A stretch of 64,000 nucleotides of DNA, from positions 2,110,001 through 2,174,000 of the forward strand of contig NC_045144.1 in NCBI RefSeq assembly GCF_008831285.2, in the 5' to 3' direction. Shown here piece after piece: positions 4,076 through 52,580 of the stretch. The notes under the pieces are model-generated. The model was not told the origin of the DNA and did no database searches. It saw only the letters and a list, made by a program, of their open reading frames with translations. Within the stretch, counting starts at the first letter, position 1. Each line of letters starts with the position of its first letter. This DNA comes from Nymphaea colorata (lineage: Eukaryota > Streptophyta > Magnoliopsida > Nymphaeales > Nymphaeaceae). The position numbers and the translations under genes are program-made.

Positions 4076-4291
4076 TTCTTGCTCAAAATATAAGATGAAG
4101 ACATGAAGTTAACTCGCTTAACTCGATTAGACTTTGGATGTAAACGTGGAAAATACATACATATCTAATTTATGCGACGGACATTAACGGAGACCATTAT
4201 GAATTGAGAATTACGTATTTTCAACTGAGAAATGGCACCGAAAGATGGGTCTCCTATAGTCTCGAGTACACAAAAGTTCATTTTATATCAT

Positions 4292-7924: not shown

Positions 7925-8020
7925 ATTCCTGAAAACTGCTACATAGCACGTGAAGTAAAAGAGTAATGAAAATGAAGATAATGAATCTACTGGAAACTGC
8001 TACATAGCACGTGAAGACAA
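7925..8020. repeat. Short tandem duplication inside hAT element
   Basis: GAAACTGCTACATAGCACGTGAAG occurs in near-identical form near 7930 and again near 7991, about 60 bases apart. It lies in the presumed leader of the transposase gene. Confidence 0.6.
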
Positions 8021-8229
8021 AACAAAGAAAACAACCAAATATCAACATCAAAAAGGAATGAATCTACTGGATTTACCAAGGCAGATCAGACTTGCATACC
8101 GCAGGCTTTGCTCTTCTTCGGGTAAGTGGGTAAAGGCGAGTTCCAGGCTTCCAGCTCCACCACCTAATATTATTGCAGCAGAAGGTCTGCACATTCAAGT
8201 TTGAAACCCAAGTTAGAGCAAGTAAACCA

Positions 8230-9339: not shown

Positions 9340-10061
9340 CATATAACATCGTTACTCTCGTTTTCTATTGGGGTAATTTTTTGTTTCATAAATTAATTAA
9401 TAAATATTTCAAAATATAAAACTTATTTTTTCCAACCCCACGCGCTGGCACTGCTTAGGTTTGGAGCTGATACCTGGCTGATTCCAATAATGTAGCACCT
9501 AACTCGAGTTCTATCTTTAAATGAAAAAGCCAAAAAAGAAACATGGCAGATAAAAGAATATTCCAGAAAGGTAGGTGGTTACGAGTGAATTGATACTTTA
9601 CTTTGGGTGACAAGTGCAATAAGTTCCTTCAAGTAATTGACCGAGAGCGGTATTATAATGGTAAGTCAAACAGACATCAGGTTTGAACAAAAGGAGGGCT
9701 GCGTCGTAAGAAGAATAGTAAACCAGGCGGGCCGGAATCGTAGTGATGGTGAGTGTTGAAGTCTTCTCCTCCCCACAAAAGCTTTGGAGGTAAAACCCAG
9801 TGGGCACGTTCCTCTCCCTTCCCAATGTCTTTTCGATAACTTGTGCACTGGGTTGTGAGTTTTAACCAGGGAAGCTGCATCGGCATCTTCCCCCACCGGG
9901 CCCCTTCTATCCCGCAGCCCACCCTTTCCCTATATTTTCCTGGCAGCACATGGCCTCCAGGTCATAGCAGACCTCACCACCTCCCGGCTGCTATCTCGTT
10001 CGAACATTCATCACCATCATTCTTCAGATCTCTCCGTCGCAGATTCGCCATCGCCGGAGAC
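9340..10061 (+). promoter_or_regulatory. Upstream region and 5' UTR of the GT14 gene
   Basis: About 720 bp between the hAT target duplication and the chosen start codon. A weak TATA-like TATATTTT lies at 9931-9938. The frame is open upstream of the chosen ATG, back to 9843, but that part is rich in Pro/His/Ser and unlike the family N-terminus, so it is treated as leader. The hAT insertion ends only about 0.7 kb from the coding start. Confidence 0.45.
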
Positions 10062-13000
10062 ATGGAGAAGATCAAGAAGCCGGACCACCAACATCAAGGA
10101 GATGAGCCCTTTCAGTTCCTCATGAAGTACCAGTGGTACCCCTCTAGCCTACTGTCTTACTTTCTTCTCTTTGCCCTTGGCATCACCGTCGGTGTCATTG
10201 CCAGTTTCCATATCAGCAGCTACCTTTCCTCATTCGATCAAATCCCCTCCACTTTTCCTTCCCTTGCGCCTGAAACTAACCGTTCGGTCCTGAGAATCGA
10301 TCACGACGCCGGCCGCCTGAATTCTTCCAGGGCTGCCAGCACCGGCGGATGCAATTGCGCCACCGGTGTCGCTTCGAACCAAGAGCTTGATATGAATTAT
10401 TATTCATTAAGTTCCGTTCCACTCAAGAACAATGACACCCGGAATTCTACCGCCGGCGGTCACGACTCAGACTATAACCGTTCTTTCGATTCTTACGAGT
10501 TCATGGGGGGCGGTGCCTCCGGCATTGAGAAAGAGGAGTTGATTGGGATCGAGGATTGGGTGGAGCCCCGGTCTGCGATGCACAACATGACGGACGACGA
10601 ACTGCTGTGGAGGGCGTCTTTGGTTCCTAAGGTTGGAGGGTACCCGTATAAGAGAGTCCCCAAGGTAGCGTTTCTGTTCTTGACAAGGGGACCTCTGCCA
10701 TTGGCGCCCCTGTGGGAGAGGTTCTTCAAAGGACACGAGGGCAAGTTCTCCATTTACGTTCACACCCACCCTTCCTACAACGAGACAGTTGCAGAAGAAT
10801 CGGTCTTCCATGGCAGGCGCATACCCAGCAAGGTACGCTCGCTGTCCAACACCTACAACTTAATTTTTCTTCCTTTTAAATGAATAACTGCTTTAATTAC
10901 TAAAGAAAAATCACGGAATTAATTTGTTTTCCTTTATTAATATTGATGTGCATCATAATTTTCTTTTAATTTGACGACTTCATGTTATTACAAGAACATT
11001 TGTTCACAATTTTTTTTTTTTTTGTTGTGTTCCCTTGAAATTTTTGTTATGACCTTCCAATCAGTCATCAATTAAATATATTAATTTAACATACAGCAGA
11101 CCATGAAGTGTATGTTAGGAAATTTCATTGGGCAAATACTATTTGGTGTTCAGGAATGAGGAAAACTATCCAGCTATGTAGGACTTAGATTGCCTATAAT
11201 TGATTAAATCCAGTGTTTGTTACATAGAAAATGGGTAACAAAAGAATACACCGAATATATATTTTAGGAGCACACGCCAAGATCAGAAAAATGGAACGCA
11301 CTCCAGTAACATTTATTTTGTATTTTATTTAATTAATCTAAATCATAAGTTGCATCTGTCTTGATCACTTCATATTAATTGAGTTTGACATTTACTATAA
11401 CAATACATCCTCTTTGAGAGTTAAAAAATCAATATTGGCCATATTGCCCAATATTCTGCGCATAAGAGATTCACTCTTTTTTCTTAATGCATAAATTATG
11501 TTCGCTTTATATTGCTTTCGATAGAATACTACAAGTAATCAGATTCCTATTTATTATGTGATGATAAACTCATTATAATCTCGTATTTTTCTATTCACCG
11601 AATTAGACTAATTAATATAGATCAGGAGTTCCAATCAGCGTTGTAAAAACCGCTAAGTGTTGATTGCGGATAGCCAAAAAGACATTAAAAGAATCATTTT
11701 CGGAAAAATCAGGGATTAGAAGAAAGATTATAAAATGAGTGAAAGCGGACGTTGAGATGGGTTTGTCATTAATGACAGTGCTGTGCATGAAAAGGATGGT
11801 TGCGTGCACGGGGGGAGATGAACTGAAAAGAATAATTGGCGAAATTAAACCTTCTTTATGATTAGACAGCCATCTGATTTGTGCGATCCAACGTCCATAA
11901 AAGCAAGTCCACGTTCAGAGAAGGCCGCGAGCACGTTGCCCATGTCATCGTAAAATTAAGATCGAACGTCCTTTAATTTGAGTGGCGGAGTTAGGAGTTT
12001 TTTGGTTGAAAGAGACAAAGTAATTGTATCAAAATCTGACATGGGCATTGAAAGTTGCTAAACCCAAGTCCAAGCTCAGTGTCAATGAGCTTTTTGAATG
12101 CCTGGTGCGTGTGGGCAATGGCCTGCACCGGTTCTCACGTAGCTCCGCTACTACTTAATCCATACTACCAATATAATCATTCTTCATATGCAACGTCAAT
12201 AATTTTTTACTCTAGCAATCATACTTTTTAACTTGGGTAGATATTTTACTGATTAAGTGATTATGTATAGTTTTCCAATGGGTAGCAAAAACACACTTGT
12301 GTTTGAGTGCTTTACGTTAAGCCCCTTGAACTAGCTAGACACGCAAACAAAAGGCGCTTAAATTTAAGCCAACTAATTTTTTAAGCTTCATTCAAGTTTT
12401 TGGTTGTATCAGTAGCAGTCGTTGTCCGTTATGATCTAAAACAGCTTTCAACCGAACCGACGCCTATTTTGAATGAAAAAGTAAAAAGGAAGATTATCAA
12501 TGAGACAGTGAGCCGGCAAAGGGGCCCTCTCCCCTTCTTCAAAAAAAATTTTACATGTAAATTTTACTTAATTGTTGTATATAAAAATTCTGAAAAATGA
12601 TATTTTGACTCTTATCAAAATTTAAAAACTTTAATTTAGTTCTCATGAAAAATTTCTCTCTCTCCATCTTTCTTCTTTTTCTTTAGGTCTTGCTGATGTT
12701 ATTTTTTTAATTACAATTGTTATTTTTTTAATAATATAAATATAAGGAGCTTTGGAGATTCCTGTCGAACTTCTAATTGCTGGTAAACAAGGTATTTGTG
12801 ATGTAAATTTGAGAAGTAATTAGACGCAGTGGGGGGTTGAGGTTGACGACATGGATGGCATTAGTGATCCTTTGTTTCTATTCGCCGTTCCATTTCTGGC
12901 TTTCGAAAACATATATCAGATCACTTCCTTTTCTGGTGCCCCCACTGGTTGATTATAAAGTAACTTATTCAAGGAATTAATTGTCTTTGCTTTCAAGGCA

Positions 13001-14474
13001 AGAAAGTCCACCAAAGTGAGCTTGAATATTCTCAACTTGCTACTAGAAGCATCCAACCTAACTGCTCGGCTTCCTCCATAGCTGAATAGGCGCCTTATAT
13101 ATATATATATATATAATCAGAGTGTTACGTCAGGAATGAAAATTAAACCCTTTAAATGATTCCCAAGAGATATTTTAAAACGTATGCATTCTCAGCCACA
13201 TGACTTGTACCAAATAATTGCATCAAAGATGAAGTCTCCCTTCAGTCTCCGAACTGTCCCACATGCAGGCTTGGCCGGAAAGGAAATTAATTGCCGTGTC
13301 GAGGTGAGCATGAGGCAAGAAAGGGACCGATATATGGCCGAATCTAGAACTAAAGTTATGTGGGCACCGAGTCGTCTTCCTTGCTGGCTTCTAAAGCCAA
13401 TGTACAAGAGTTTCCAAAGGGTAAGTTCATATACAATTCCGGTCCCATCCAGACCTAACATAAAGATGGGTGCGTTTGCTTTTTTCCTTTCGCCTTTGAG
13501 CTTGCAGCCAAAATCTTGGCTGCCATAATCCCATTTATCTGTCCTTTTCTTCTGCAACCTGACCTCTTTTCTCTTTGTAATCAAAGAGGGGAAAAAAATA
13601 CAACGCCGATATATATATATATATATACATAGCTTTAAGAAGATTGTTCATTTTTCTATAAGGAATTAAGCCCGGAGCCGGAGAAAAGCTTTTGCGCTGC
13701 ATTTTTCACTGCTCGATCGCGATGAAGTACAAAACCAAGCTTTTATCCTTTTTAACGGCTCTGAAAGGCAACATGGGATTTATTCTTTCAGTTCAGAAAG
13801 CCATTAACGGGATGTTGGAGTACTTCACAAGAACAGCCTTTCTATTTTTTACTGATTTTTGGAGTTTGTCAGTTGTTGAATCATTATAATATAGTTTCTT
13901 GAACTACTTTACAATAAACCTTTTCTCATTTTCTTATTCATGTTGGTTTCTTTACAATAAACCTTTTCTTATTTTCAGAGAATACCTCGTCCCTTAAACC
14001 ATACTAAATATCAATAACTCTCAATACCATAAGATAGAGGTGTCCCTAGGAATGAAACAAGAGACATGCTCATTATATGAGATTGAGTTGCCTGCATAGG
14101 TGTGCGCACAGAGGGGTGTGCATGCATAAGTATACACAAAAAAACATGAAAAAGAAAAAAGAAAGAAAGAAAGGGGGTTGGGGTATTTTTGATTTTTTTT
14201 ATAAAGAAATGTTCATTGTAGACTTTTTAACTTTTTATAACCCCTTTGTCTTTCTGATGTATTTGTTTTTTTACTTTAAACAGGAATATTTTAGTAATTG
14301 CACATTTCTGTGCATAATTTTCCATGCACTTGGCGTGCATATAAGCCATTTCACCACTACATACCACCTAGCCCGATTAATACCATCATTTAGCAGAGAG
14401 AATGAGAGAGGGCACTTAATTTGGTTGTCTTTAAATCTTGGGGGCCACTAAATGTTGCAAATGAAGCAAAGTTG

Positions 14475-14559
<85 letters not shown>

Positions 14560-15285
14560 TAGAGCAGTGCTAAATATATATGTTCAAATGCTTGACTACC
14601 ATCTATGAAAGAATTGCTGAAGATCAAGTCTCAATTTGATTTAAACAGGAGTGTGGCTGGGGATCGATCAGCCTACTCGAAGCGGAGCGCCGGCTTCTCG
14701 CAAACGCGCTTCTAGACTTCTCCAATGAACGTTTTGTGCTGCTGTCGGAGGCTTGCATTCCTCTCTTCCCATTCGCAACCATCTACGATTACCTCATCAA
14801 CTCGAGGCACTCCTTCGTCAATGTCGTCGACGAACCAGGTCCCTGTGGCCGTGGCCGCTATTCCAACCTCATGCGCACGGCCATCAAGCCCCAAGAGTGG
14901 AGAAAGGGGTCACAGTGGTTTGAGATGGACCGGAAACTCGCCCTGGAGGTGGTTTCCGATCAGAAGTTCTTCCCGGTGTTCAAAAAGTATTGCAGACATT
15001 CATGTTATCCCGACGAGCATTATATCCCGACGCTTGTGAACGTAAAGTTCGGGAGGTGGAGCGCGAACAGGAGCGTGACATGGGTGGACTGGTCCAAGGG
15101 TGGAGCTCACCCGGCTCGGTTTTACAGGTGGGACGTAACCATGGACGTGCTGAGAAAAATGAGGGATGGCAGTCGATGCATGTACAATGGAAATGAGACA
15201 TCGGTCTGCAACTTGTTCGCTAGAAAGATGCTACCTAATTCTTTGGTCAGACTACTAAATTTTGGACCTAAGGTTCTAGGATTTT

Positions 15286-15287
<2 letters not shown>
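10062..15287 (+). CDS. GT14 family glycosyltransferase, BC10-like; join(10062..10832,14649..15287)
   Basis: Encodes a predicted 469-residue type II Golgi membrane protein of the plant core-2/I-branching (GT14, DUF266) family. Rice BC10 of this family affects cell-wall polymers; exact donor and acceptor are not known from sequence. Exon 1 (257 codons) has a short basic N-terminus, one membrane span (about residues 27-50), a Ser/Asn-rich stem, and the catalytic domain start [18 protein letters not shown] (about 201). It ends AAG|GTACGC in phase 0. Exon 2 after TTAAACAG gives [46 protein letters not shown] and [13 protein letters not shown], and ends PKVLGF-stop, a normal family C-terminus. ATG 10062 (MEKIKK) fits the family better than the upstream in-frame 9843 codon. 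No stops or frameshifts; probably functional. Confidence 0.9.
11980..12155. mobile_element. Short MITE related to the 1226 element (in intron)
   Basis: Begins AGTGGCGGAGTTAGGAG and ends CGTAGCTCCGCTACTA, imperfect inverted repeats matching the termini of the 1226-1822 hAT-type MITE. About 175 bp. Flanks CTTTAATT and CTTAATCC are similar but not a perfect 8-bp duplication, so the boundaries are approximate. Confidence 0.5.
14477..14555. repeat. (AT)n microsatellite in GT14 intron
   Basis: About 79 bases of uninterrupted TA dinucleotides shortly before the exon 2 acceptor. Likely length-polymorphic. Confidence 0.95.
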
Positions 15288-21778: not shown

Positions 21779-21995
21779 TGTTAGACACCAGATAGGGAAT
21801 CTTAGGTTGGGTCCATTAGACTGACCCATTACATCTATAAATAGGCTCCATAGATCAGAATAGGGGTTTATCGCAGAAGTTATTGGGCATTTCTTTGGGA
21901 GGAGAAACCCTAATCTCGAGACTAGGGCTGAGTGTGTGCATGAAGTTTGAGGTTTATCTCTTGTAAGGGCTCATCAAGGTTAGCAATCGCTAACA
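21779..21995 (+). repeat. Array LTR 1 (complete, 217 bp)
   Basis: Starts TGTTAGACACCAGATAGG and ends AATCGCTAACA, with TG...CA ends. TATAAATA at 21836-21843 is a good core promoter signal. Confidence 0.85.
21836..21843 (+). promoter_or_regulatory. TATA box in array LTR 1
   Basis: TATAAATA, conserved at the same LTR position in LTR 3 (27447-27454) and LTR 4 (29599-29606). It suggests the LTR carried a Pol II promoter; present activity is unknown. Confidence 0.6.
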
Positions 21996-22340
21996 ATGGT
22001 ATTAGAGTCGGCCGTCTTTTTCGCCAAACCAAACCACCACTTCACGCTGTCCACTTGTGAGGATCAAGATCTCACAACTCTTGAATCCTTCTACAAGCAA
22101 TTGGATGAAGAGCACCAAATGATGGACAATTTCATGGAGGCGATGGAAAGGAATATTGGGAAGATCGAGCAGTCTAAAAAATCCACGGACAAGCGATTGG
22201 AAATGATAATGGCCTAGCAAAAGGATTTCAAGGGCCTACTGGAACAATTGCTCAACAGGGTAGACGGTAGCAAGAACGGAATCAAGAATAGCTCAGGGGT
22301 TCTGCGCATGGATAGTCATGCAAACCAAGCAGCAATGACA
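21996..22340 (+). pseudogene. Gag-like N-terminal frame, array unit A
   Basis: Reads FFAKPNHHFTLSTCEDQDL, then an acidic helical segment KQLDEEHQMMDNFMEAM, to an amber stop at 22215-22217. It then continues in frame as QKDFKGLLEQLLNRVDG. This resembles the helical start of plant gypsy gag proteins. The normal gag core that should follow is absent; the frame runs into the foreign segment near DFHRLEFYNTNN (about 22380). The amber codon is followed by CAA and occurs in units A, D and E. Confidence 0.6.
21997..22009 (+). other. Primer-binding site, array unit A
   Basis: TGGTATTAGAGTC one base after LTR 1, a degenerate match to the initiator tRNA-Met complement TGGTATCAGAGCC. Confidence 0.7.
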
Positions 22341-22939
22341 GCATCGGCCCCTCGAGATGAAGAAAAGGCTAAGACAGACTTCCACCGATTGGAGTTTTAC
22401 AACACCAACAACAAGCCCCCTGGTGACGAGCTCATGAAGCAAGAGATTACGAGAAGTACAAAAAGGACCTGTAGGCAAAGGGCCAAAACATCACTGATGT
22501 TGACAAAAATGGCGTGGGCGGTTCATATGGTGTGACAATGAGATCTTCACTAACCAACCTTGTCGATTGATGATGGAGGGTGCAATAGTCGATACTGGTG
22601 AGCACTGCTTAGACGATGGGGCTGTGTTCGCTCAGTCCACCATGGAATACACCCTTGTCGTATCGCCATAATTAAACAAGCAAGTTGCAAAATCCACTAA
22701 TCCTTCACAAGAGGAGTTATTGATAGAGTGCCAAGCTGCTCCAGCCGCATCCTTACGCAAGAATGGAAGGCAAGTAATGCATCCATGGAAACCCCTATGG
22801 GTGAAAGGCAAGAATAGCCAAAGGGAATTTGAGGACTCACGGTCAGTGATGCAAGGAAAAAGGCAGCAAACCATGATTCAAGAAAGAAAGAAGGAGAAGG
22901 AGACAGAAAATGAGACAAATGACTCTGGTACAAGCAATA

Positions 22940-24180
22940 AAAACAGGTTATGCTTATACGATCCTGACATCTCTCATGCGCAGTGGCTATCTTTGACCAT
23001 CCAATGGCTTGTTGACAATCCCAGTTGAGCTACAGTTCCTCGATGGATATTCATCTTCATCGCCCACACCTTCCAGTGTGTCTTGGAGGAGGTCCACTAC
23101 ACGGAACTCCGCAAAGGTACTGTTCTCAAACATGTTTTGGCAAATCCATCTTGATAAGACACAATTTGATAGCATTGGTCAATTTTACATGAATGTGATA
23201 ATGTTATGAAAAGGTTTGAAAAGAAAAAACATATTGTCCATCACTTTCATATGAAGATTACTTTGGGTGCATGTGAGCACAATATGCTTAGCTTATGTGG
23301 TTGTGGTAAAAGTTTGAGACCACCATGCATACAATTCTCAAATGCAGATAAAAATGGGGCATTATACAGTGGGTCAACAAAAAGACTCCAAAGATATTGT
23401 CCGATGCTATTTGCCTAACCATGTTGCAGACTGTTGTTCAAGGTAATCCACGAATAGGCATGGTTGACATTTTATGAGTGAATCCCAATGCAACATCTTG
23501 GGTTGAAAATCTCACGAAATCAGAAAGAGGTGGGCTGGCTCTTGAAGTCGTGATTCAGAGACGTCCTTGAAAAAATAAAGGTGATGCTTGGATAACTGGC
23601 AGGACTATTGCTTGGCTGTGATGATTGACGAGACACGTTGTATTCCATATGATATTCAACAAATTTAGGAAAGACTGGAATTTTTGTGTGTCTTAGATCA
23701 GTCAATATAGTTGTTATCATCATCTATGGGAAATATTGCAAAAGGAATGCTGAAAGCGTATCTTATTTTGGTAGGAAGCAGTTAACTTCCTTGGGTTCAA
23801 TACTACTGGCTATAGGGCATTGTTTTGCACCTTTGAAGTGCCCACATCATTAAATGAATCTATACTATATACACCAATAAGATGTTGTGAGAGAGCAATA
23901 ATAAGGGGCCACAGTGGTTCTTTATTCAGTGCCATTGGATCATGTTTTTGAGGAAATCGTGTAGCTCGGGGTACAGGAGCATCATTTGAAATCACATGGA
24001 CCGACCATTAAATGGAATGTTTAGAATTGCAGGATTATACTAGTGTGGTGGTCGAAAATTATCAACTCCATGATAATTCGAGGCCCATTCATCGGATGGA
24101 GAAATGAACGGTATGTTGTCGCCCTTGCAACATTCGTTGCAGAAATATGAAGTTTGCAGCAAATTTGAGTATCCTTGAAG
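22940..24180 (+). pseudogene. Captured RNA polymerase IV/V largest-subunit segment, unit A
   Basis: The part from about 23520 to 24170 reads, across several frameshifts, as the C-terminal end of the RPB1 domain 5 region of NRPD1/NRPE1, the largest subunits of the plant RNA polymerases that direct siRNA production and DNA methylation. Signals include LALEVVIQR, KNKGDAWITG, a degenerate IPYDIQQI and TTGYRALFCTFEVP. The upstream part (from LCLYDPDISHAQW near 22950) is presumably earlier sequence of the same gene, but I cannot verify it. Amber TAG at 23666-23668 replaces the Gln after QQI and is shared by all units with this region. No intron-like interruption is visible, suggesting capture of spliced RNA. 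Confidence 0.6.
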
Positions 24181-24241
24181 GGGGCATAACAAGAAAGACT
24201 CACACGTTGTGGACAAATTGTTTTCTTGAAGGGGAGAGTAT

Positions 24242-24295
24242 TGTTAGACACCAGATTGAGGATCTCGGGTCGGGTCCAGATTGACCCATTAACGT
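24242..24295 (+). repeat. Array LTR 2 (5' fragment only)
   Basis: TGTTAGACACCAGATTGAGG to about CCCATTAAC. It then jumps directly to sequence that lies about 300 bp inside the other units (GGGTTCTGTACATGG). The deletion removed the TATA box, the LTR end and the primer site. Confidence 0.8.
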
Positions 24296-24984
24296 GGGTT
24301 CTGTACATGGTTAGTCACACAAACCAAGCAGCAACGATAGCATCGGCCCCTCGAAGACGAAGAAAAGGCTAAGCGGACTTCCATTGGTTGGAGTTTTACA
24401 GCACCAACAACAAGCCCCTTAGTGACGAGCTCGTGAAGTGAGAGATTACATGTAGCACAGAAGAGAACCTGTAGGTGAAGGGCCAAAACATCACTGATGT
24501 TGATAAAAATGGCTTGGGCCAGTTCTTACGATGTGTCAATGGGATCTTCACTGACCGACCTTACCAACTCATGATAGAGGATCCAATAGTCGATACTAGA
24601 GAGCAGCGCTTAGGCGATGGGGGTGTGTTCACTCAGTCCACCATGGAATACACCCTTGTCGTATCATGATCATTAAACAGACAAGTGGTAAAATGCACTG
24701 ATACTTCACAAGAGGAGTTATCGATAGAGTGCCAAGCCTCTCTAACTGCATTCTTATGCATGGATGGGAGGCAGGTAATGCATCCATGGAAACCCCCATG
24801 GGTGAAAGTCAAGAATAGCCAAAGGGAATTTGTGGGTGAAAGTCAAGAATAGCCAAAGGGAATTTGAGGACTCATGGTCGGTGATGCAAGGAAAAAGACA
24901 GCAGACCTGGATTCGAGAAAAACAGAGGGTGAAGGAGACAAAAAATTAGACGAATAACTCTGGTACAAGTAATAAAAATAGGTT

Positions 24985-26236
24985 ACGCTTATACAATCTT
25001 GACATCTCTCATGTGCAATGGCCATCTCTGACCGTCCAGCGGCTTGTTGACAACCCTAGTTTTGCTACAGTTCATCAACGGAGATTCATCTTCGTCACAC
25101 ACACCTTCCATAGTGTCTTGGAGGAGGTCGACTATACAGAACGCCGCAAAGGTACTATTGTCAAACTTGTTGGGCAAATCCATCTTGATAAGACACAATT
25201 TGATAGCATTAGCCATAAAATTAGTGACATTCTACGTGAATGTGAAAACATCATGAAAATGTTTGAAAAGAAAAATCATATTGTCCATCACTTTCATATG
25301 ATTGCTTTGGATGCTTGTGAGCACTATAGGCTTGGCCTGCGTGGTTGTGGTAACAATTTGAGGCCACCATGCAAGCAGTTCTCAAATGCAAATAAAGATG
25401 GGTCATTATACAGTGGTTGCAGCAAAAAGACTGTAAAGATATTGTCCAAAGCTATTTGCCCAACCTTGTTGTAGATCGTGGTTCAAGGTGATCCACGAAT
25501 AGACATGGCTAACATTTTACGAGTGAATCTCAATGCAACATCTTGAGTTGAAAATCCCACAAAATCAGAAAGTGGTGAGCTGGCTCTTGAAGTGGTGATT
25601 TAGGGAAGTGCTTGGAAAAATAAAGGTGATGTTGGAATAACTGGCATGGACTGTTGCTTGGCCATGATGATTTATGAGGCACGTTGTATTCCATATGGCA
25701 TCTAGCAAATTTAGGAAAGAATGAAAATTTTGTGTGCCTTGGATGAGTCAATCCAGACATCATCATCATCTATGGGAAATGTTGCAAAAGGAGTGTTGAA
25801 AAAGCATTTTATTTTAGTGGGAAGCAACACGTTTGGTACTGGTAACCTCCTTGGCATCAATACTACTAGCTATAAGGCATTGTTTTGCACCTTTGAAGTG
25901 TCCACACCATTTAATGAATCTATACTATATACACCAATAAAATGTTGTGAGAGAACAACAGAAAGGGGTCACAATGGTTCTCTCAGTGCCATTAGATTAT
26001 GTTTTTGGGGAAAGCGTGTAGCTCGGGGTATAGGAGCATCATTTGAAATCACATGGTCCGACCATCAAATAGAGTGTTCGGAATTGCAGGATTATGCTAG
26101 TGAGGTGGTCGAAGATTATCAAGTTTTTGATAATTCGGGGTCCGTTCCATCAAATGGGAAAAAGAAAAACATGTTATCGTCCTTGCAGCATTCATTGCAG
26201 AAATCTGAAGTTTGTAGCAAATTTGAGAATCCTTGA
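24985..26236 (+). pseudogene. Captured RNA polymerase IV/V largest-subunit segment, unit B
   Basis: One of the best-preserved copies. 25013-25474 is open for 153 codons (QIHLDKTQFDSI, IVHHFHMIALDACEH, LRPPCKQFSNANKDG). 25721-26236 is open for 171 codons and reads VAKGVLKKHFILVGSN, INTTSYKALFCTFEVS, ESILYTPIKCCERTTERG and WGKRVARGIGASFEITW. This tracks the KGVLKEHLIL ... GFNTGGYKAL ... FTPRKCFERAAEK ... WGK-VG-TGS-F segment known from NRPD1/NRPE1. The shared stop lies at 25712-25714, with a second stop nine bases earlier that is also in unit C. The end runs into a 34-bp direct duplication (26226-26300). Confidence 0.65.
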
Positions 26237-26300
26237 AGGGGGCATAACCAGAAAGGCTCACATCTTGAAGGGGGCATAACCAGAAAGGCTCACATCTTGA
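26226..26300 (+). repeat. 34-bp direct duplication at the unit B/C junction
   Basis: CTTGAAGGGGGCATAACCAG with its following bases (34 bp in all, to GGCTCACAT) is repeated head to tail, followed at once by the truncated unit C. It marks the recombination or repair junction between two array units. Confidence 0.85.
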
Positions 26301-26303
26301 AGG

Positions 26304-27320
26304 GATTCATGACATGCTACGTGAATGTGAAAACGTCATGAAAAAGTTTGAAAAGAAAAAACATATTGTCCATCACTTTCGTGTGAAGATTGTTTTGGAT
26401 GCTTGTGAGCACTAAAGGCTTGGCCTGCATCGTTGTGGTAACAGTTTGAGGCCACCATGCATACGATTCTCAAATGCAGATAAAAATGGGGCATTATACG
26501 GTGGCTACAGCAAAAAAACTCTAAAGCTATTGTCGAAAGTTATTTGCCCAGCCTTGTTATTGGGTGTGGTTCTAGATGATCCACAAATAGACATGGTTAA
26601 CATTTTACGTACAAATCCCAATGCAACGTCTTGGGATCAAAATCCCATGAAACCAGAAAGAGGTGAGCTGGCTCTTGAAGTGGTGATTCAGAGAAGTGCT
26701 TGGAAAAGTAAAGGTGATGCTTGGTTAACTGACATGGGACTATTGCTTGGCCGTGATGATTGATGAGGCATGTTGTATTCCATATGGTATTTAGCAAATT
26801 TAGGAAAAACTGGAAATTTTGTGTGCCTTGGATAAGTCTATCCATAGGTCATCATCATCTATGGGAAATGTTGTAAAAGGAGTGCTGAAAGAGCACCTTA
26901 TTTTGGTGGGAAGTAGCATGTCTAGTACTGGTAACTTCTTTGCGTTTAATACTACTGGCTATAAGACATTGTTTTGCACATTTGAAGTACTCACAACATT
27001 AAATGAGTCTATACTATATACACAAATAAAATGTTGTGAGAGAACAACAGAATGGAGTAGAGTGGTCCTTTATTCAGTGCCATTATATCATGTTTTTGGA
27101 GAAACTGTGTAGCTCGGGGTACAGGAGTATCGTTTGAAACCACCTGTTCAGACCATCAAATGAAGTTCTTAGAATTGCAGGATTATACTAGTGAGGTGGA
27201 CGAAGATTTTCAACTCTTTGATGATTCAGAGCCTGTTTCATCAGATGGAAAAATGAACAATATGTATCATCCTTGTAGCATTCATTGCAAAAATATGGAG
27301 TTTGCAGCAAGTTTGAGTAT
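26304..27320 (+). pseudogene. Captured RNA polymerase IV/V largest-subunit segment, unit C
   Basis: Joined directly to unit B without LTR; it starts mid-segment at ATTCATGACATGC. 26446-26763 is open for 105 codons (GELALEVVIQRSAWKSKGDA). 26819-27112 is open for 97 codons (KGVLKEHLILVGSSM, FNTTGYKTLFCTFEVL). Shared stop at 26801-26803. Ends with the common tail and polypurine tract before LTR 3. Confidence 0.6.
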
Positions 27321-27370
27321 CCTTGAAGGGGAAAAATAAGTAAGGCTCACACCTTAAGGACAATTTGTTT

Positions 27371-27388
27371 TCTTGAAGGGAAGAGTAT
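27371..27388 (+). other. Polypurine tract before LTR 3
   Basis: TCTTGAAGGGAAGAGTAT directly precedes the LTR. The same tract, AAGGGGAGAGTA, precedes LTR 2 (ending about 24240) and LTR 4 (ending about 29540). Confidence 0.7.
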
Positions 27389-27599
27389 TGTTAGACACCA
27401 GATAGGGGATCTTGGTTCGGGTCCATTGGACTGAACCATTAACCTCTATAAATAGGATCCGTAGATCTGGTTTATCACATAAGTTATAGGGCATTCCTTT
27501 GGGAGGAGAAACCCTAATTTGGAGATTAGGGTTGAGTGTGTGCATGGAGTTAGGGATTTATTTCTTGTAATGGCTCATCAAGGTTAGCAGTGGCTAACA
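27389..27599 (+). repeat. Array LTR 3 (complete, 211 bp)
   Basis: Starts TGTTAGACACCAGATAGGGG and ends GTGGCTAACA. TATAAATA at 27447-27454. Preceded by the polypurine tract and followed by a well-preserved primer site. Confidence 0.85.
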
Positions 27600-27900
27600 A
27601 TGGTACCAGAGCCAGTCGTCTTTCTCAGTAAACCAAACCACCACTTCACGCTGTTTGCTTGTGAAGATGAGGATCTCGTAGCTCTTGAATCCTTCTGCAA
27701 GCAATTGGATGAAGAGCACCAAATGATGCACAATTTCATGGAGGCGATGGAAAGGAATATTGGGAAGATCGAGTAGTCCCAGAAATCCTTGGATAAGCGA
27801 TTGAAAACGATAATGGCCTAGCAAAAGGATTTTAAAGGCCTATTGGAACAATTGCTCAACAGGGTAGACGGTAGGAAGAATGGAATAAAAAATAGCTTAA
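27600..27900 (+). pseudogene. Gag-like N-terminal frame, array unit D
   Basis: Second copy of the gag-like start, with extra point mutations and an earlier stop (GAGTAGTCC near 27772). It shares the amber-CAA codon at 27819-27821. Confidence 0.55.
27601..27613 (+). other. Primer-binding site, array unit D
   Basis: TGGTACCAGAGCC one base after LTR 3. Only one base differs from the standard tRNA-Met primer site. Confidence 0.8.
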
Positions 27901-28235
27901 AGGTTTTGTCCAAGTAGCAACGATAGCATCGGCCTCTCGAGATGAAGAAACAGGTAGGACGGACTTCCACCGGTTGGGGTTTTACAGTACAAACAACAAG
28001 CCCCTTGGTGATGAGCTCATGAAGTAAGAGACTATGAGAAGCACAGAGGAGGACCTGCAGGTAAAGGGCAAAAACATCACTGATGTTGACAAAAATGGCT
28101 TGGTCGAGTTCTTACGGCGTAACAATGGGATCTTCACTAGCTGACCTTGCCCACACGTGATGGAGGGTGGAATAGTCAATATTGGTGAGCACTACTTATA
28201 AAATCCAGACATCTCTCATGTGACCCTAATACAAG

Positions 28236-29478
28236 TAACAAAAACAGGTTGTGCTTATACAATCTAGACATCTCTCATGTACAACGGCCATCTCTGACCA
28301 TTCAACGGCTTGTTGACAAGCCCAGTCGGGCTGCAGTTCCTCGACGAAGAATTATCTTAGTCACCTACTCCTTCCAAGGCATCTTGGAGGAGGTCAACTA
28401 CATGGAACGCCACAAAGGTACTGTTTGTGAACTTGTTGGGCAAATCCATCTTGATAAGATGTAATTTGATAGCATTGGTCATAAGATTCATGACATTCTA
28501 GGTGAATGTGAAAACGTCATGAAAAGGTTTGAAAAGAATAAACATATTGTCAATCACTTTCATATGAAAATTGCTTTGAATGATTGTGAGCACTCTAGGC
28601 TTGGCTTGCGTGGTTGTTCTAGTAGTTTGAGGCCACCATGCATACGATTCTCAAATGCAGATAAAAATGAGGCATTATACAATGGTTGTAGCAAAAAGAC
28701 TAAAGATATTGTCCAAACCTATTTCCCCAACCTTGTTGTTGACTGTAGTTCAATAGACATGGTTAACATTTTACATGCAAATCCCAATGCAACGTCTTGG
28801 GTTGAAAATCCTACAAAACCAAAAAAAGGTGAGTTGGCTCTTGAAGTGGTTATTCAGAGAAGTGCTGGGAAAAACAAAGGTGATACTTGGATAACTGACA
28901 TGGACTATTGCTTGGCCATGATAATTAATGAGGCACGTTGTATTCCATATGGTATTCAACAAATTTAGGAAAGACTGAAAATTTTTTGTGCCTTGAATCA
29001 GTCTATCCAAAGGTTATCATCATCTATGGGAAATGTTGCAAAAGGAGTACTGAAAGAGCACCTTATTTTGGTGGGAAGTAGCATGCCTGGTACTGGTCAC
29101 TTCCTTGGCTATAAGGCATTTTTTTGCACCTTTGAAGTGTCCACACCATTAAATGAATCTATACTATATACATCAATAAAATATTATGAGAAAGCAGTAG
29201 AAAGGGGTCACAGTGGTTTTTTATTCAGTGCCATTAGATCATGTTTTTTGGGGAAAGCATGTAGCTCGAGGTACAGGAGCATAATTTGAAATTACATGGA
29301 CCGACCATCAAATGAGTGTTCAAAATTGCAGGATTATACAAGTGAGGTGGTCGAAGATTATCAGCTCTTTGATAATTTGGGGCCCGTTTCATCAGATGGG
29401 GAAATAAACAGTATGCTATCGTCCTTTGAGCATTCATTGCAGAAATCTGAAGTTTGTAGCAAATTTGAGTATCCTTGA
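28236..29478 (+). pseudogene. Captured RNA polymerase IV/V largest-subunit segment, unit D
   Basis: 28519-28968 is open for 149 codons and gives the cleanest view: VENPTKPKKGELALEVV, then GDTWITDMDYCLAMII and ARCIPYGIQQI before the shared amber at 28966-28968. After the stop, 28993-29289 continues (MGNVAKGVLKEHLIL), with a small in-frame loss around GHFLGYKAFF compared with units B and C. The NRPD1/NRPE1 match is by motif order and spacing; a database comparison would settle which paralogue was the source. Confidence 0.65.
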
Positions 29479-29541
29479 AGGGGGCATAACAAGAAAGGCT
29501 CACACCTTGAGGACAAGGTGTTTTCTTGAAGGGGAGAGTAT

Positions 29542-29712
29542 TGTTAGACATAAGATTGGGGATCTCGGGTCAGGTCCATTGGACTGACCATCAACCTCTA
29601 TAAATAGGGTCTGTATATCGGGCTTATCGCATAAGTTATTAGGGCTGAGTGTGTGCATGGAGTTTGGGGTTTATCTCTTGTAAGGGCTCTTCAAGGTTAG
29701 CAGTGGCTAACA
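29542..29712 (+). repeat. Array LTR 4 (171 bp, internally deleted)
   Basis: Starts TGTTAGACATAAGATTGGG and ends GTGGCTAACA. TATAAATA at 29599-29606. About 40 bases shorter than LTR 3, missing the GGGAGGAGAAACCCTAAT part. Confidence 0.85.
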
Positions 29713-30000
29713 ATGGTGGTCGTCTTTCTTGCCAAACCAAACCACCACTTCACGCTATCCACTTGTGAGGAGGAGGATCATGCAGCTCTTGAATCCTTCT
29801 GCAAGCAATTGGATGAAGAGCACCAAATGATGGACAATTTCTTGGAAGCGATGGAAAAGAATATTGGGAAGATCAAGTAATCTTGGAAATCCATGGATAA
29901 GTGATTGGGAATGATAATGGCCTAGCAAAAGAATTTCAAGGGCCTACTGGAACAGTTGCTCAATAGGGTAGACGGTAGGAAGAACGAAATTTAAAATAGC
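29713..30000 (+). pseudogene. Gag-like N-terminal frame, array unit E
   Basis: Third copy. The primer site is partly deleted (ATGGTGGTCGTC). Additional stops occur, and it shares the amber-CAA codon at 29923-29925. Confidence 0.55.
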
Positions 30001-30644
30001 TCAAGGGTTCTGTACATGAATAGTCACACAAACCAAGCAACAACGATAGCGTCGGCCCCTCGAGACAAAGAAAAGGCTAGGCCGTACTTCCACTGGTTGG
30101 AGTTTTACAGCACAAACAACAAACCCCATGGTGATGAGCTCGTGAACCAAGAGATTACGAGAAGCACAAAGGAGGACAAGGGCCAAAACATCACTGATGT
30201 TGATAAAAATAGCTAGGGCCAGTTCTTACGGCGTGACAATGGGATCTTCACTGACCAACCTTGCCAACTCATGATGGACAGTGCGATAATTGATACTGGT
30301 GAGCACTGCTTAGGCGATGGGGGTGTGTGCGCTCAGTCCACCATAGAATACACCCTTGTCGTATTGCCATCATTAAATAGGCAAGTTGAAAAATCCCCTG
30401 ATCCTCCGCAGGAGGCGTTATCGATAGAGTGCCAGGCTACTCTAGCTGCATCCTTACGCAAGGATGGAAGGCTGGTAATGCATCCATGGAAACCCCTAAG
30501 GGTGAATGGCATGAATAGCCAACAAGAATTTGAAGACCTGTGGTTGGTGATGCAAGGAACAAAACAGTAGACCAGGATTCGAGAAAGACAAAAGGAGAAG
30601 GAGAAGGAAACAGAAAATGAGGTGCATGACTTTAGTACAAGTAA

Positions 30645-31062
30645 TAAAAATAGGTTATTCATATAGAAACCTAACATCTCTCATGTGCAATGGCCATCTC
30701 TGACCGTTCAGTGGCTTGTTGACAACCCCAGTCGAGCTATAGTTCTTCGACGGAAATTCATCTTTGTCGCCCACACCTTCTAGGTCGTCTTGGAGGAGAT
30801 CGACTACACAAAACGCCATAAAGGTACTGTTCTCGAACTTGTTGGGCAAATTCATCTTGATAAGATGCAATTTCATAGTATTGGTTGTAAGATTAATGAC
30901 ATTCTACGTGAAAACGTCATGAAAAGGTTTGAAAAGAAAAAATATATTGTTCATTACTTTCATATGAAGATTGCTTTGGATGCTTGTTAGCACTTTAGGC
31001 TTGTCCTGCGTGGTTATGGTAACAGTTTGAAGATGCGTATGATTTTCAAATGCAGATAAATA
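30645..31062 (+). pseudogene. Captured segment, unit E (3' truncated)
   Basis: Carries only the upstream part (QWPSLTVQWLVDN-like, QIHLDKMQFHSIG, IVHYFHMKIALDAC). It breaks off near 31035-31062 inside the CSNADK-type region. The RPB1-like end, tail and right LTR are missing, so the array has no visible right-hand target duplication. Confidence 0.55.
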
Positions 31063-32411: not shown

Positions 32412-32957
32412 ACCTGCAGTAAAATGAATTGAAATTATACATGACATAGGCAGCCAACAGGATAAAAGTGTTAACAAGAAACAAAAAAAAACTCCGCACT
32501 TCAAAATGGCTTAGTATACTGATCTACCCACCCACACATCTCCATCTGCTCCCAAACTTGTCGTGTTGTGTGTAAATACTGTTAGGCACGTATACAAACA
32601 AAAGAGAAAGGAAGAAAAGGTGCTGGTGCAAGTCTGGTTACTGCTGCACCTCCCTAAATCCAATTTTCAATGATGTCAAGGGTTGATTACACGTGTGCAC
32701 ATAAGACATTGTTGGATGTTTCCTAATGTGTGACAAACACACAAGTTTTATTAGGTTAGTCTTATTAACATGCAATATTTTGAAAATATCATGATGTACT
32801 CCTTACATAAAACATTGTTTGAAATGTATTTTTGTGTATGTCTCTATTTCTTGGTTTATTTTAAAGTTTTAAAGCTGTTTCGAGTTTTTATCAATATAAA
32901 AGCACAAATTATACTGAGAGATTTAGTCAATATACTTTGGTGGTAGAAAATCAAATG

Positions 32958-32958
<1 letters not shown>

Positions 32959-33043
<85 letters not shown>
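32959..33043. repeat. (AT)n microsatellite
   Basis: About 85 bases of uninterrupted TA dinucleotides. Confidence 0.95.
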
Positions 33044-33046
<3 letters not shown>

Positions 33047-33635
33047 AGAGGAAAATATTTCTAGGAAAACTATTTTGCCGTTTGATAAAAGAGGAAAATA
33101 CTTCTTTAGGATGAAAAGCTAAAGCCAAGCAAAATGCTGACATGCAAACACAAATTATAGTTCTTGTAGAACTCATAGGCGGCATAGTGCAGCGGGATTA
33201 CAAATTGGCAGTGATCTGAAGACACTAAGTAAGCATTTTTGGACAAGTGAACTTTTTATGATTGAAAAAATCAGTGAATAAAACTGGAAACCAGATTGAG
33301 GGTATTACTTTTTTAGTGCAAATCATAAAATATTTAGGCAACAAAAAAAAGTTGATAAAAAGTGTGATGGCTTTTCTTGCGATTAAGACGAAAGTTTTAT
33401 AACATCTAGAAGATGGGACAGCATCGAACCAGACAATTTGAAGATCATTGGAAATATGTTGGAGCTGAAAACTGAAGACACGTTGAAACTGCATAAGGAA
33501 ACAAGCTTAAGCAATATACAAATAAGAAAAATTAATCAAATTCAAAGATGAAAGAAATAAAACAGCTTCTCAAAACATGCAGAACTGGCACTTGACATGC
33601 AAACAGAAACATGGCTGGTGGTTATGTGTGTGCTA

Positions 33636-35910: not shown

Positions 35911-36606
35911 TGTTATAGCCGTTTTCTCCAAAAAGAATGCTTCAAAAACAATAAAACAGGCCAAACCACCTAGTATGATAGTCGGACATGCACAAAACTG
36001 CTGAAAATCGGAATCACAGGGCTGCGAGCATAAGATCAGGTTTCCTATACCAATGTTGCAGCAATATATGTCAAAATATATGCTAAATAATGCAAAAAAC
36101 AAGACACCATTTACATGGAAAAACCCCCAATAATGGGGTAAAAAACCACTGGGCAAGAGAGACTTTCTATATATCAAGAAAGAGAGTCAAATACACCAGC
36201 AGCAATATCCCTACTGTTTTAAGAAAAACAGTGAACTCAAGAGAACAATAACACTCTTTTATACGAATGAAAGAAAGAGCCCCAAAGATTCAAGAAAGAA
36301 ATCACCCAATGAAGACTCCTTTTATTTTCTCTTTTTTCTGTGTCTTTCCTCTCTCTTCTTGGCATGCCGATCAACCCATGAACTTTGCTGTGATTTCTCT
36401 TTCTTCTCTTCATTGCCTTGCTCTTCCCCTTCTCTTCTTACTGTGTGCAGCCATAAGAGGGAAGCCCTCTTTTCTTTTCCCCAAAAGAAAAACACGAGAG
36501 AGAGAGACGTGAGAGGCAGGGCACCATCGTGTGCCCTCCCCTTTTTCTCCACCCATCACTTAAGTGACGGGTCGGGTCCTCACTTGAGGCTTGATCTGAC
36601 CCAACA
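35911..36606 (-). repeat. Inner copia 3' LTR
   Basis: 696 bp. Plus strand begins TGTTATAGCCG and ends GACCCAACA. Matches 40634-41338 along its whole length. Confidence 0.88.
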
Positions 36607-36658
36607 AACTCTCCTTTCAGCCTCAAGAGAGGAATCATACCTGCAAAATGAATAAAAA

Positions 36659-39600
36659 TTAATACACTGCTTTAAAGGCGGTCACCCCAACTAAGTCTCT
36701 ACACTTGTCATGCTTCTCTTCAAGTAGAGACTTCGTCATCATATCTGCAGTATTCTTCTCTGTATGTATCTTCTCTAATTGAATCAGTTTTTTCTCAAGC
36801 ACATCACAAATCCAATGATATATAACATCAATGTGCTTGGTCCTTGAGTGAAATGTTGAATTGTTTGCCAAGTGTATAGTACTTTGGCTATCACAATGCA
36901 ATACATAGGTTTTCTTATTAAGGCCTATATCATAAAGAAAACTCTTCATCCACAACAACTCTTTACAAGTTTCAGTTGCTGCAATATATTCTGCCTCTAT
37001 AGTGGAAAGAGCAACACACTTCTGTAATCTGGACTGCGATGATACTGCTCCCCCTGCAAAAGTAAAGACATAACCAGAAAGAGACTTTCTAGAGTTCAAG
37101 TCACATGTTATGTCTGCATCAATAAATCTTTGTATATCTGGATTATATTCACCAAAACACAAACAGTAATTGGAAGTATGTTTAAGATACCTTAGAATCC
37201 ACTTCACTGCTGCCCAATGCTCCTTGCCTGGATTTAACAAGAACCTGCTAACTACGCCAACTGCATAGGCCAAGTCTGAGGGTGAGCAAACCATAACATA
37301 CATGAGACTCCTTACTGCGGAGGCATATGAAACATTATCCATTCATTCTTTCTCATCTGCTGAGGATAGACATTTCACATTTTCCAATTTAAAATGTGTT
37401 GCTAAAGGTGTACTTACTGTTTTGACATCTTTCATGCTGAACTTGCTAAGCCCCTTCTCAATGTATTTCTCTTGTGATAACCACAACTTTTTGGCCTTCC
37501 TATCACGAATAATCTTCATGCCTAATCTTCATATAAAAGAACGTGCCTTTTCCATCTTCAATTGGCTAATCAATTGATAGTCCTGTCTAACAATAAGTAT
37601 GTCATCTACATATAACAACAAGATAATGAAGTTACCTGATGAGAACTCTCTGATGTAGACACAATGATCTATGACTGACCTGCGATACTTTAGATTTATC
37701 ATAAAAGCATCAAATTTCTTGTACCACTGTCTAGGTGCATGTTTAAGTTCATACAAACTCTTCTTTAACTTACAAACCATGTGTTCCTTTCTCGCAACCA
37801 CAAAACCTTCTGGCTGTATCATATATATTTCTTCATCTAGATCTCCATGAAGAAAAGCAGATAAGCCACCAAATCAAGTATTACCCTGATAGATGACATT
37901 TTAATAACAAGAGAAAAAATTTCATCAAAATCAATACCTCTTTCTTGCTTGAAACTTTTCACCACTAACCGAGCTTTGTATCTCAACTTGCCTTGACCTT
38001 CATTTTTAAGCTTGTAGATCCACTTGTTTTGCAACACTTTCTTACCTTTTGGTAGCTCTACTAAATCAAAAGTGTGATTCTTATACAAAGAATTCATCTC
38101 TTCTTACATGGCATTAATCCATTCATCTTTATGCACATTATCTAGCACCTGTGCATAGGATTCTGGCTCTCCACTATTTATAAACAAAATATATTCATCA
38201 GTAGAATATCTAGTATACGTGTTCTTTTACCTCTTCCCAATTGCTCCTCAATTGGTTCTGAATGAGAAAGAAGCTCCCTCTCCAACTCATGCTCATGATC
38301 AGTTTGAGTCTCCGTAGGGCTCCCATCTCTATACTGCTCATCTGCCTCTCTTTCCTCTCCCTCTACGTTTTCATCAGTCTCACTATGCTCAGATGAAAGT
38401 TCTTTGGGTTCTGCATAGATTGGCTCATGAACACTACTAGCATTCATTTTGTTACCCATGTCATCTTCAATTGTCTGATCCTCTCTGAAGACAACATCAC
38501 GACTCTTGTAGATTTTCTCATTCTTTGGATCTCATAACTTGTAACCAAATTCATCATCTGCATAACCAATAAATATTAGAGGAATAGCTTTATCATCTAG
38601 TTTGGTTCTATGTTCTTTAGGTACATTCATAAAACTTTGCAACCAAAAACTCTGAGGTGATCATACTTAACCTTTTCATCTAACCAAACTCTCTGTGGAA
38701 TATCTCCATCTAGAGGCACTGAAGGAGACCTGTTTTTTAAATAAACTACAGTACGCATTACCTCTGCCCAAAAATACTTAGGCAATTTAGAGCTAGATAA
38801 CAAACTTCTGACTCTCCCAATTATAGTTCTACTCATCCTTTCTGCAACTCCATTATGCTATGGAGTATAGGGAACTGTCTTTTCATGTATAATACCATGC
38901 TTTAGACAATACTCTCGTAAAAAAAAAATGCTATGTACTCACTATCATTATCTGTACGCAGTCTCCTCATCTTCTTACCAGTCTCGCGCTCAACCGCTGC
39001 ATGAAAAGTCATGAAGATACTACTTACTCTACTTTTACTTTTCATTGGAAAGGCTCATACCTTCATAGATGCATCATAATGTAACAAGATAGGATGCTTC
39101 ACCTTTAGATGTCACATTTATAGGTCCACATACATCTGATAAACTAAATCTAAAACATCTTTAGTTTTTTAAGATCACTTTTTTTTAAAGGAAATTAGAT
39201 GCAACTTACTAACCAAACAATGATCACAATGAGATAACTGTGCACCATCTGCCTTTGGTAACAAATTCTTCTTGGTGAGCAAATCAATTCCTCTTTGACT
39301 CATGTGTCCTAACCTCTTATGTTAGGAATCTAACGAAGTACCATCAGTAACTGCATTTACCTTAACACTACTGATTCGAGACTTCATCCTATACAAAGAG
39401 CCAAATCTGCTACCTCTAACCAACACTAGTGCCCCCTTTGTCAGTTTTCAACCAGTCTGACTAAACAAAGTACAATATCCATCTTCACTTACTTTTCTTA
39501 TAGAAATCAGATTCATTCTAAGATCTGGAACATGTCTCACATCTCTCAAAATCAGTTTGCATCTTGTGCTCGTCTCATTGCAAACATCTCTTATCCAAAC

Positions 39601-40600
39601 AATCTTCAAAGTGTCACTGTTGCCCATGTGAACTATTCCAAGATCACCTGCTTTATTGGATAAGAACAACTCTCTATGGTGTGGCATGATATGATGCCCC
39701 AGTATCTAAAATCCATGTGGAATCACCATTCTGAACTGTAAGACAATCATTTTCTTTAAATAAAAATAACACTACCTCATTATCTGAAGCAACTGTAGTG
39801 TACTCTTTTGGCTTCACATTCTCTTGACTCTTCTTTTTCTGTTCTTTTTCTTCTTTCCATTTCCTGCAATCAATCTTATTGTAACCTGAAATACCATAGT
39901 GAAAGCATTTACCTGTCATCTTGGGTCTTGATTTAGATATAGATTTTGATCTGTCCTGCTATTTGTTACGTGTTCTTCTGTCTTCCCCTGTCTCTCATCA
40001 CTAGCATTTGTGAGCTAGTAGTACCAAGAGACTTTCTCATTGTTTCTTTATTTAGAATGTTGTTGGTTACATGTCTCATCATTAGCACACCATCTGAAGC
40101 GAAGTTGCTCAAAGAAACAACTAAAGTCTCCCAACTATCGGGAAAAGAACTAAGCAATAAGAGTGCCTGTAACTCATCATCTAATATCATTTTTATGGCT
40201 GACAACTGATTGATTATGTTTTGCACTTCATTCAGATGCTCTAACACTGGTTTTCCGTCTCTAAGTTTCAAATTTACCAATTGCCTAATCAAGAAAGCCT
40301 TGTTCCCAGTTGTTTTCCTCTCGTAAAGATCATGCAACTTCTGTCATAACGACTTCGCGCTCGTCTCCGCAGATACCAAATGAAAAACACAGTCATCTAA
40401 CCATTGTCTGATGGTGCTAATGGTTTTCCTGTCCAATAACTTCCATTTTCATCTGTCATATTCGTTGGCTTCTGGTTCTCAATTGGTGCATACAACTCTT
40501 TACAATACAACAAATCTTCCATCTTGGCTTTCCATATGGTCCAATTATTCCCATTTAGAGAGACCATCCTAGTGGGGGTCAACTCCATCCTTGAAGAAGA
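36659..40600 (-). pseudogene. Inner copia gag-pol pseudogene
   Basis: Domains in order on the minus strand. Gag: 40600-39920 (SLNGNNWTIWKAKM, HLNEVQNIINQL), with a degraded zinc knuckle CFHYGISGYNKIDC whose second Cys and His are lost. Protease: 39715-39680 (WILDTGASYHATP, active site intact). Integrase: zinc finger near 39230 (HCDHCLVSKLH) and C-terminal part 38836-38627 (KLPKYFWAEVMRTVVYLKNR). An acidic linker with GRGKRTR lies at 38459-38178. Reverse transcriptase: 38097-37529 (NKWIYKLKNEGQGKL, SLYELKHAPRQWYKK, LLLYVDDILIV). RNase H: 37342-36659, open for 227 codons (FIDADIT, STIEAEYIA, LHCDSQSTIHL, RTKHID). Stops and frameshifts separate the blocks, so it cannot make a full polyprotein. 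Confidence 0.88.
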
Positions 40601-40619
40601 ATGCACACAACCAACCTGT

Positions 40620-40630
40620 CTCTGATACCA
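40620..40630 (-). other. Inner copia primer-binding site
   Basis: Minus strand TGGTATCAGAG, matching the initiator tRNA-Met complement, three bases inside the 5' LTR. Confidence 0.85.
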
Positions 40631-40633
40631 CTT

Positions 40634-41338
40634 TGTCATAGTCATTTTCCCCAAAAAGAATGCTTCAACAACAATAAAACAAATCAAACCAACTAGTATG
40701 ATAGTCAGATATGCACAAAACTACTGAAAATCAGAATCACAGGGCTGCGAGCATAAAATCGAGTTACCAATACCAATATTGCAATAATATATATCAAAAT
40801 ATATGCTAAATAATGCAGAAAACAAGGGACACCAATTTATGTAGAAAAACCCCCAATAATAGGGTAAAAATCACAGGAAAGAGAGACTTTCTATATATCA
40901 AGAAAGAAAGCCAAATACACCAGCAGTAATATCCCTACTATTTTAAGAAAAACAGTAAACTCAAGAGAACAATAACACTCTTTGATATGAATGAAAAAAA
41001 AAACACCAAAGGTTCAAGAAAGAAATCACCCAATGAAGACTCCCTTCATTTTCTCTTTCTTCTTTGACTTTCCTCTCTCTTCTTGGTGTGCCGATCAACC
41101 CACGCACCTTGCTGCAATTTCTCCTTCTTCTCTTCCTTGCCTTCCTCTTTCCCTTCTCTTCTTGTTGTGTGCAGCCACAAGAGGGAAGCCCTCTTTTCTT
41201 TTTCCCAAAAGAAAAACATGAGAGAGAGAGAGAAGTGAGAGAGAGGGGCACCATCGGGTGGCCTCCCCTATTCCTCCGCCCGTCACTTAAATGACGGGTC
41301 AGGTCGGGTCCTCACTTGAGGTTGGACCCGACCCAACA
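40634..41338 (-). repeat. Inner copia 5' LTR
   Basis: 705 bp. Plus strand begins TGTCATAGTC and ends GACCCAACA, followed by the CCTTC target duplication. Contains a (GA)n tract near 41220. Confidence 0.88.

Positions 41339-52482: not shown

Positions 52483-52580
<98 letters not shown>

Follow-up and report, generated by a model that had tools for sequence, protein, structure and literature searches.

How does part of NRPE1, which encodes the largest subunit of RNA polymerase V (Pol V), come to stand in several intron-free copies among the long terminal repeats (LTRs) of a transposable element? We took up this question for a 64,000-nucleotide stretch of Nymphaea colorata (the window; C7:2110001-2174000, where C7 is contig NC_045144.1 and other contigs are labelled likewise) and for the 408-Mb assembly that contains it, for which all counts from genome searches are lower bounds. 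Our answer, to which we give a probability of about 0.9, is that a non-autonomous LTR retrotransposon captured a spliced chimera of host mRNAs, spread to at least three loci and then decayed. A sequence-only reading of the window had proposed that a retroelement took up part of a gene for a silencing polymerase and multiplied it; our analysis supports this, with the best matches to NRPE1 of Pol V.

Five decayed LTR-element units lie head-to-tail at 21779-31060, the first LTR beginning at 21779 (TGTTAGACACC) and homology stopping at 31060, within a few bases of the limits first proposed (21779..31062). Inside a unit the order is primer site, gag-like region, middle region, a remnant of a third host gene, the NRPE1 piece, a piece of another gene that probably encodes an MA3 domain (the MA3 gene), polypurine tract and LTR. 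Among the 13 self-matches listed in the array, 12 have 80.6-84.5% identity and the remaining one (106 bp of LTR) 74.5%. The LTRs are about 0.21 kb long with TG...CA ends, and a single LTR stands between neighbouring units and is common to both, except that units 2 and 3 meet at a deletion joint where there is no LTR. The sequence-only reading was therefore right about LTRs of about 0.2 kb with primer site and polypurine tract, and wrong in taking the units for separate insertions instead of a tandem array with shared single LTRs. Pairwise K80 distances among the three longer LTRs (21779, 27389 and 29542) are 0.12-0.14. Scored against TGGTATCAGAGC, the pattern that we take to be of the initiator-Met type, the primer site agrees at 10/12 positions after LTR1 and at 11/12 after LTR3, and it is not recognisable after LTR4 (7/12). 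The polypurine tract GAAGGGRAGAGTAT precedes LTRs 2, 3 and 4. Related LTRs gave at least 41 matches in the genome. No pol was seen in the window units, and the element lineage is probably Ty3/gypsy. The LTRs and the sequences near them are as follows.

21779..21995, plus strand: LTR of unit 1 (TGTTAG...GCTAACA), found by self-comparison, with relatives elsewhere in the genome
21997..22008, plus strand: primer-binding site, presumed initiator-Met type, 10/12
22010..22400, plus strand: gag-like start region, end approximate, from alignment with the C6 and C12 loci and by eye with C1 and C5
22400..22960, plus strand: middle region of unassigned origin, from genome matches of its C6 version
24242..24295, plus strand: truncated LTR separating unit 1 from unit 2, with the polypurine tract before it
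27389..27599, plus strand: LTR between units 3 and 4
27601..27612, plus strand: primer-binding site, 11/12 against the same presumed pattern
29542..29712, plus strand: LTR separating unit 4 from unit 5, internally deleted at more than one place

Two long open reading frames (ORFs) of the array, 25715-26233 and 28465-28965, matched the Pol V largest subunit with E values of 3.3e-25 and 4.8e-12, much better than chance would give, and cover residues 953-1115 and 1119-1235 of that chain (8hil_A), and an ORF of a further copy on C6 (described below) matched its residues 991-1162 with an E value of 5.6e-39, as against 8.9e-9 for Pol IV. The piece had been ascribed to NRPD1 or NRPE1; the latter holds and a Pol IV (NRPD1) source is rejected, as ORF 25715-26233 gave only E 1.6e-4 and ORF 28465-28965 no match up to E 1. 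It had also been placed in the C-terminal region; in fact it comes from the last part of the protein's core (residues ~953-1235 in a chain of 2032), not from the C-terminus. Searches of a protein database, which by design cannot find full-length NRPE1, returned nothing at E 0.001 for the 173-residue ORF of the array and one unnamed 121-residue protein (47% identity over 57%) for the 207-residue C6 ORF. The host NRPE1 gene, introns included, stands elsewhere on the same contig, on the minus strand near C7:12.22-12.23 Mb and about 10 Mb from the window. Over the captured stretch its exons measure 76, 128, 170, 275, 174 and 141 nt, followed by the start of a seventh, and the six introns (each GT..AG) are missing in every copy that spans them; it was therefore spliced mRNA that was captured. 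The C6 copy shows the capture starting inside the first of these exons; units 1-4 and a second copy on C7 show it stopping ~14 nt into the seventh. Four or more copies had been counted from sequence; there are five units, of which units 1-4 hold most of the segment (unit 3 without its start) and unit 5 only ~0.24 kb.

23181..24011, plus strand: NRPE1 capture of unit 1, spliced exons, decayed
25165..26068, plus strand: NRPE1 capture of unit 2; ORF 25715-26233 spans the joint of NRPE1 and the MA3 gene in one frame
26304..27160, plus strand: NRPE1 capture of unit 3, end approximate; LTR and 5' part lost at the joint of units 2 and 3
28417..29311, plus strand: NRPE1 capture of unit 4, end approximate; contains most of ORF 28465-28965
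30823..31060, plus strand: NRPE1 capture of unit 5, truncated

At least one other host gene is fused to the NRPE1 piece, and probably a second. Past the end of NRPE1 the element matches C2:10611253-10611333 at 84%, within an open exon of 299 codons. The best protein match of this exon, with an E value of 1.7e-18 and 65% identity across 26% of the query, is to a hypothetical Nymphaea thermarum protein. About 4 kb downstream of the C2 segment lies an ORF with an MA3 domain (E 8.9e-12); we infer that ORF and exon belong to the same gene, which we take to be NOM1/SGD1-like. More of this gene is present in the second C7 copy (13.10 Mb), on either side of an inversion breakpoint; there two of its exons adjoin where an intron would be spliced out, apart from one base that differs beside the joint. 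In the C6 copy the 59 bp directly upstream of NRPE1 match a third donor, C7:2982092-2982150, at 86%; the donor exon holding this match had no Pfam (E 0.5) or PDB (E 1) match. The joint of the third gene with NRPE1 is in frame in C6, and that of NRPE1 with the MA3 gene is in frame in unit 2. Since introns have been precisely lost from two donors, the capture passed through an RNA intermediate.

24024..24104, plus strand: piece of the MA3 gene (presumed NOM1/SGD1-like), unit 1
26081..26162, plus strand: piece of the MA3 gene, unit 2
27172..27248, plus strand: piece of the MA3 gene, unit 3
28371..28412, plus strand: probable remnant of the third gene (donor C7:2982092-2982150), unit 4, recognised through the C6 copy
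29324..29404, plus strand: piece of the MA3 gene, unit 4

The search for further copies that the sequence-only reading had called for found the same element sequence linked to the capture at two more loci. With 771 bp of the capture as query there were at least 12 matches. Four of them lie in the window and four in exons of the host gene; the others are at C7:13.097 Mb, at C6:19.322 Mb, at the C2 donor and in the tail of the second C7 copy. Capture and element sequence thus occur together at a minimum of three loci, namely the window, C6:19.32 Mb and C7:13.10 Mb. The C6 copy comes with a primer site and a gag-like region of its own and leads into a stretch resembling the end of an integrase; at the second C7 locus the capture is followed by the same tail, polypurine tract and LTR. 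Because the same element sequence is linked to it at three loci, the chimera is part of the LTR element, and its presence at two further loci means that it probably moved after capture. Of the LTR-bounded copies sought elsewhere, the linked element sequence was found at both extra loci, and a capture between two intact LTRs at neither. The second C7 copy (4251-7930 of locus L020) is split by an inversion and lies amid reverse transcriptase remnants that appear copia-like by their motifs.

No Pfam gag match was obtained for the C6 version of the gag-like region. The C6 version of the middle region has matches on C1 (65%), C5 (72-73%) and at C6:14.08 Mb (75% over 126 bp), sites at which the capture search did not find NRPE1. 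Two further candidates for cargo were set aside. A piece resembling the histone-binding protein MSI1 in ORF 24950-25471 had sub-threshold Pfam scores only (E 0.012; 0.16 in the C6 copy) and is not claimed; a DNA search with the C6 stretch revealed no donor, all five matches lying inside element copies. A cargo in the C5 relative which we took to resemble S-formylglutathione hydrolase was unsupported by Pfam and PDB searches. A relative at C12:4.66 Mb (4953-8101 of locus L024) has similar LTRs on both sides of a different 2.3-kb interior, which has at least 46 genome matches.

In a tree from which unit 5 was omitted as too short, units 1-4 of the window cluster together (99), their sister is the second C7 copy (99), and C6 stays on the host side. 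K80 distances to host NRPE1 fall from 0.18-0.21 in the window units to 0.14 in the second C7 copy and 0.09 in C6, and those between units 1-4 are 0.15-0.19. Plant substitution rates of 0.7-1.3e-8 per site per year would very roughly date the array to 6-13 million years.

Reading stops by host codon columns in seven copies (units 1-5, second C7 and C6), we counted 6, 5, 3, 3 and 2 in units 1-5, one in the second C7 copy and none in C6. Frame-breaking indels occur in every copy except unit 2 (two of them in C6), so that all seven are broken in one way or the other and no conserved open reading frame was found. One stop is common to units 1-4 and absent from the second C7 copy and C6; the frame was therefore lost before or during the local expansion. 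Differences were even across codon positions in all 21 pairs compared (p 0.06-0.97; unit 5 left out). Host NRPE1 stands alone against six copies that agree with one another at seven sites, of which 1, 1 and 5 fall at the three codon positions; these sites are few, and the host lineage contributes to them. Against five agreeing copies (C6 left out) the counts are 4, 11 and 13, with no clear constraint. At host C sites, in six copies and on both strands, C-to-T changes amount to 42/141 (30%) in CG, 76/352 (22%) in CHG and 199/1645 (12%) in CHH contexts, host NRPE1 being only a proxy for the ancestor. This pattern is as expected for long-methylated DNA and suggests that the copies probably decayed while methylated. 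Judged from its sequence, the NRPE1 piece no longer encodes a functional protein and is carried by the element as a passenger.

We propose that the element packaged host mRNAs and may have switched templates during reverse transcription, as the joints and missing introns suggest; template switching between co-packaged RNAs is a route described in section 6 of PMC13317346. The chimera so taken in would have comprised the third-gene piece upstream, a piece of spliced NRPE1 mRNA and a piece of spliced MA3-gene mRNA, and its presence at three or more loci would reflect transposition. Expansion in the window to five head-to-tail units probably occurred by unequal recombination through the LTRs, which fits because single LTRs separate the array units. 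The copies would then have decayed neutrally, probably methylated meanwhile, to judge from the substitution patterns.

Several observations weigh against this account. At none of the three loci does the capture lie in an intact copy that runs from LTR to LTR and shows a clear target-site duplication. In the window the right outer end of the array, needed to see such a duplication, is gone; the C6 copy breaks off after NRPE1; and the second C7 copy carries an internal inversion and is truncated on its 5' side. The element is without a known autonomous partner. The integrase-like match of the C6 copy, to a Tf2-1-like SH3 domain (E 1.6e-6), reaches 28.6 bits, just under the Pfam cut-off of 30, and a 71-residue C6 ORF just past the NRPE1 break, presumably integrase-like, had no Pfam match. 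Finally, the two in-frame joints (chance ~1/9) are a mild hint of past coding, and the 1, 1, 5 pattern is a mild hint of an earlier coding phase.

A bolder suggestion, quite improbable in our view, is that the NRPE1 piece of the active element, as small interfering RNA (siRNA) or antisense RNA or as an in-frame chimeric protein, lowered Pol V and so aided escape from RNA-directed DNA methylation. If true, a transposon would attack its own silencer with a stolen piece of that silencer; no result of this analysis supports such a gain. In its RNA form, where transcripts or siRNAs of the capture would have lowered host NRPE1 and weakened methylation of the element, it can draw on as much as ~0.9 kb of NRPE1 exon sequence in sense orientation, now 82-92% identical to the host and presumably more so when the element moved, and section 11 of PMC13317346 reports captured pieces in maize as siRNA sources against their donor genes. 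Only three loci were found, a lower bound, with no burst seen, and the copies bear a methylation-like decay signature, all of which makes this form very unlikely. A chimeric transcript could instead have left an ordinary processed pseudogene, which then came to lie beside LTRs by chance; it would likewise be intron-free and fused to a second gene, and related LTRs are common in the genome. This is nevertheless highly improbable, since at the C6 locus the capture again has the gag-like and middle regions upstream of it, at the second C7 locus tail, polypurine tract and LTR again come after it, and LTRs alternate with the array units. That the in-frame chimera gave a Pol V fragment which poisoned Pol V assembly is extremely doubtful: both joints are in frame in extant copies, the piece spans core residues ~953-1235 and the six-copy comparison gave 1, 1 and 5, yet no copy has one open frame across the capture, units 1-4 share a stop, codon positions are evenly affected in 21/21 pairs, the five-copy comparison shows no clear constraint and the frame coincidence has a prior of ~1/9. 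The chance that the segment is the host NRPE1 locus or a DNA-level duplicate of it is practically nil, for although the host gene is on the same contig, that exon-intron gene lies ~10 Mb away and the lack of 6/6 introns already refutes the idea.

Capture of host genes by LTR elements is established; NRPE1 as cargo is unusual. The maize element Bs1, whose captured pieces are presumably spliced, resembles the capture by a non-autonomous LTR retrotransposon proposed here. It too is described as an LTR element holding sequences of more than one host gene (PMC13317346, PMC7264820); it differs in that the cargo here includes the Pol V largest subunit and stands in a five-unit tandem array, and a chimeric gene from Bs1 is described as transcribed and translated, whereas here no copy is open. 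LTR elements bearing host gene pieces are known in many cases from rice and sorghum (PMC3726574), in a survey that used full-length elements and in whose main text 'RNA polymerase' is absent. VANC/KIU of Vandal DNA transposons, as presented in section 11 of PMC13317346, also join a captured host domain to an anti-silencing setting, but VANC is a working protein and the NRPE1 capture has no open frame. Among the open-access titles and beginnings of abstracts listed, which leave subscription papers mostly outside, no LTR element with NRPD1 or NRPE1 cargo is described. A cargo taken from the polymerase that guides transposon methylation would permit a direct test of whether captured cargo feeds back on silencing, and the spliced multi-gene chimera cleanly records a capture by way of mRNA, probably in an angiosperm of an early-branching lineage.

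Other features of the window include the end of a hAT-family transposase at 5544-6452 on the minus strand (Dimer_Tnp_hAT, E 1.4e-29) and two plus-strand ORFs at 10059-10883 and 14640-15287 (Branch, E 2.2e-14 and 9.4e-58), which probably belong, as exons, to a single glycosyltransferase gene of the Core-2/I-branching type. A copia-type element has left remnants at 35911-41175, with gag at 39966-40343 (E 1.3e-22) and direct repeats 88-90% identical and 4.7 kb apart. Short-repeat arrays with 8-12-bp steps (family D1) are alike at 14427-14601, 32909-33077, 52461-52621 and from 53932.

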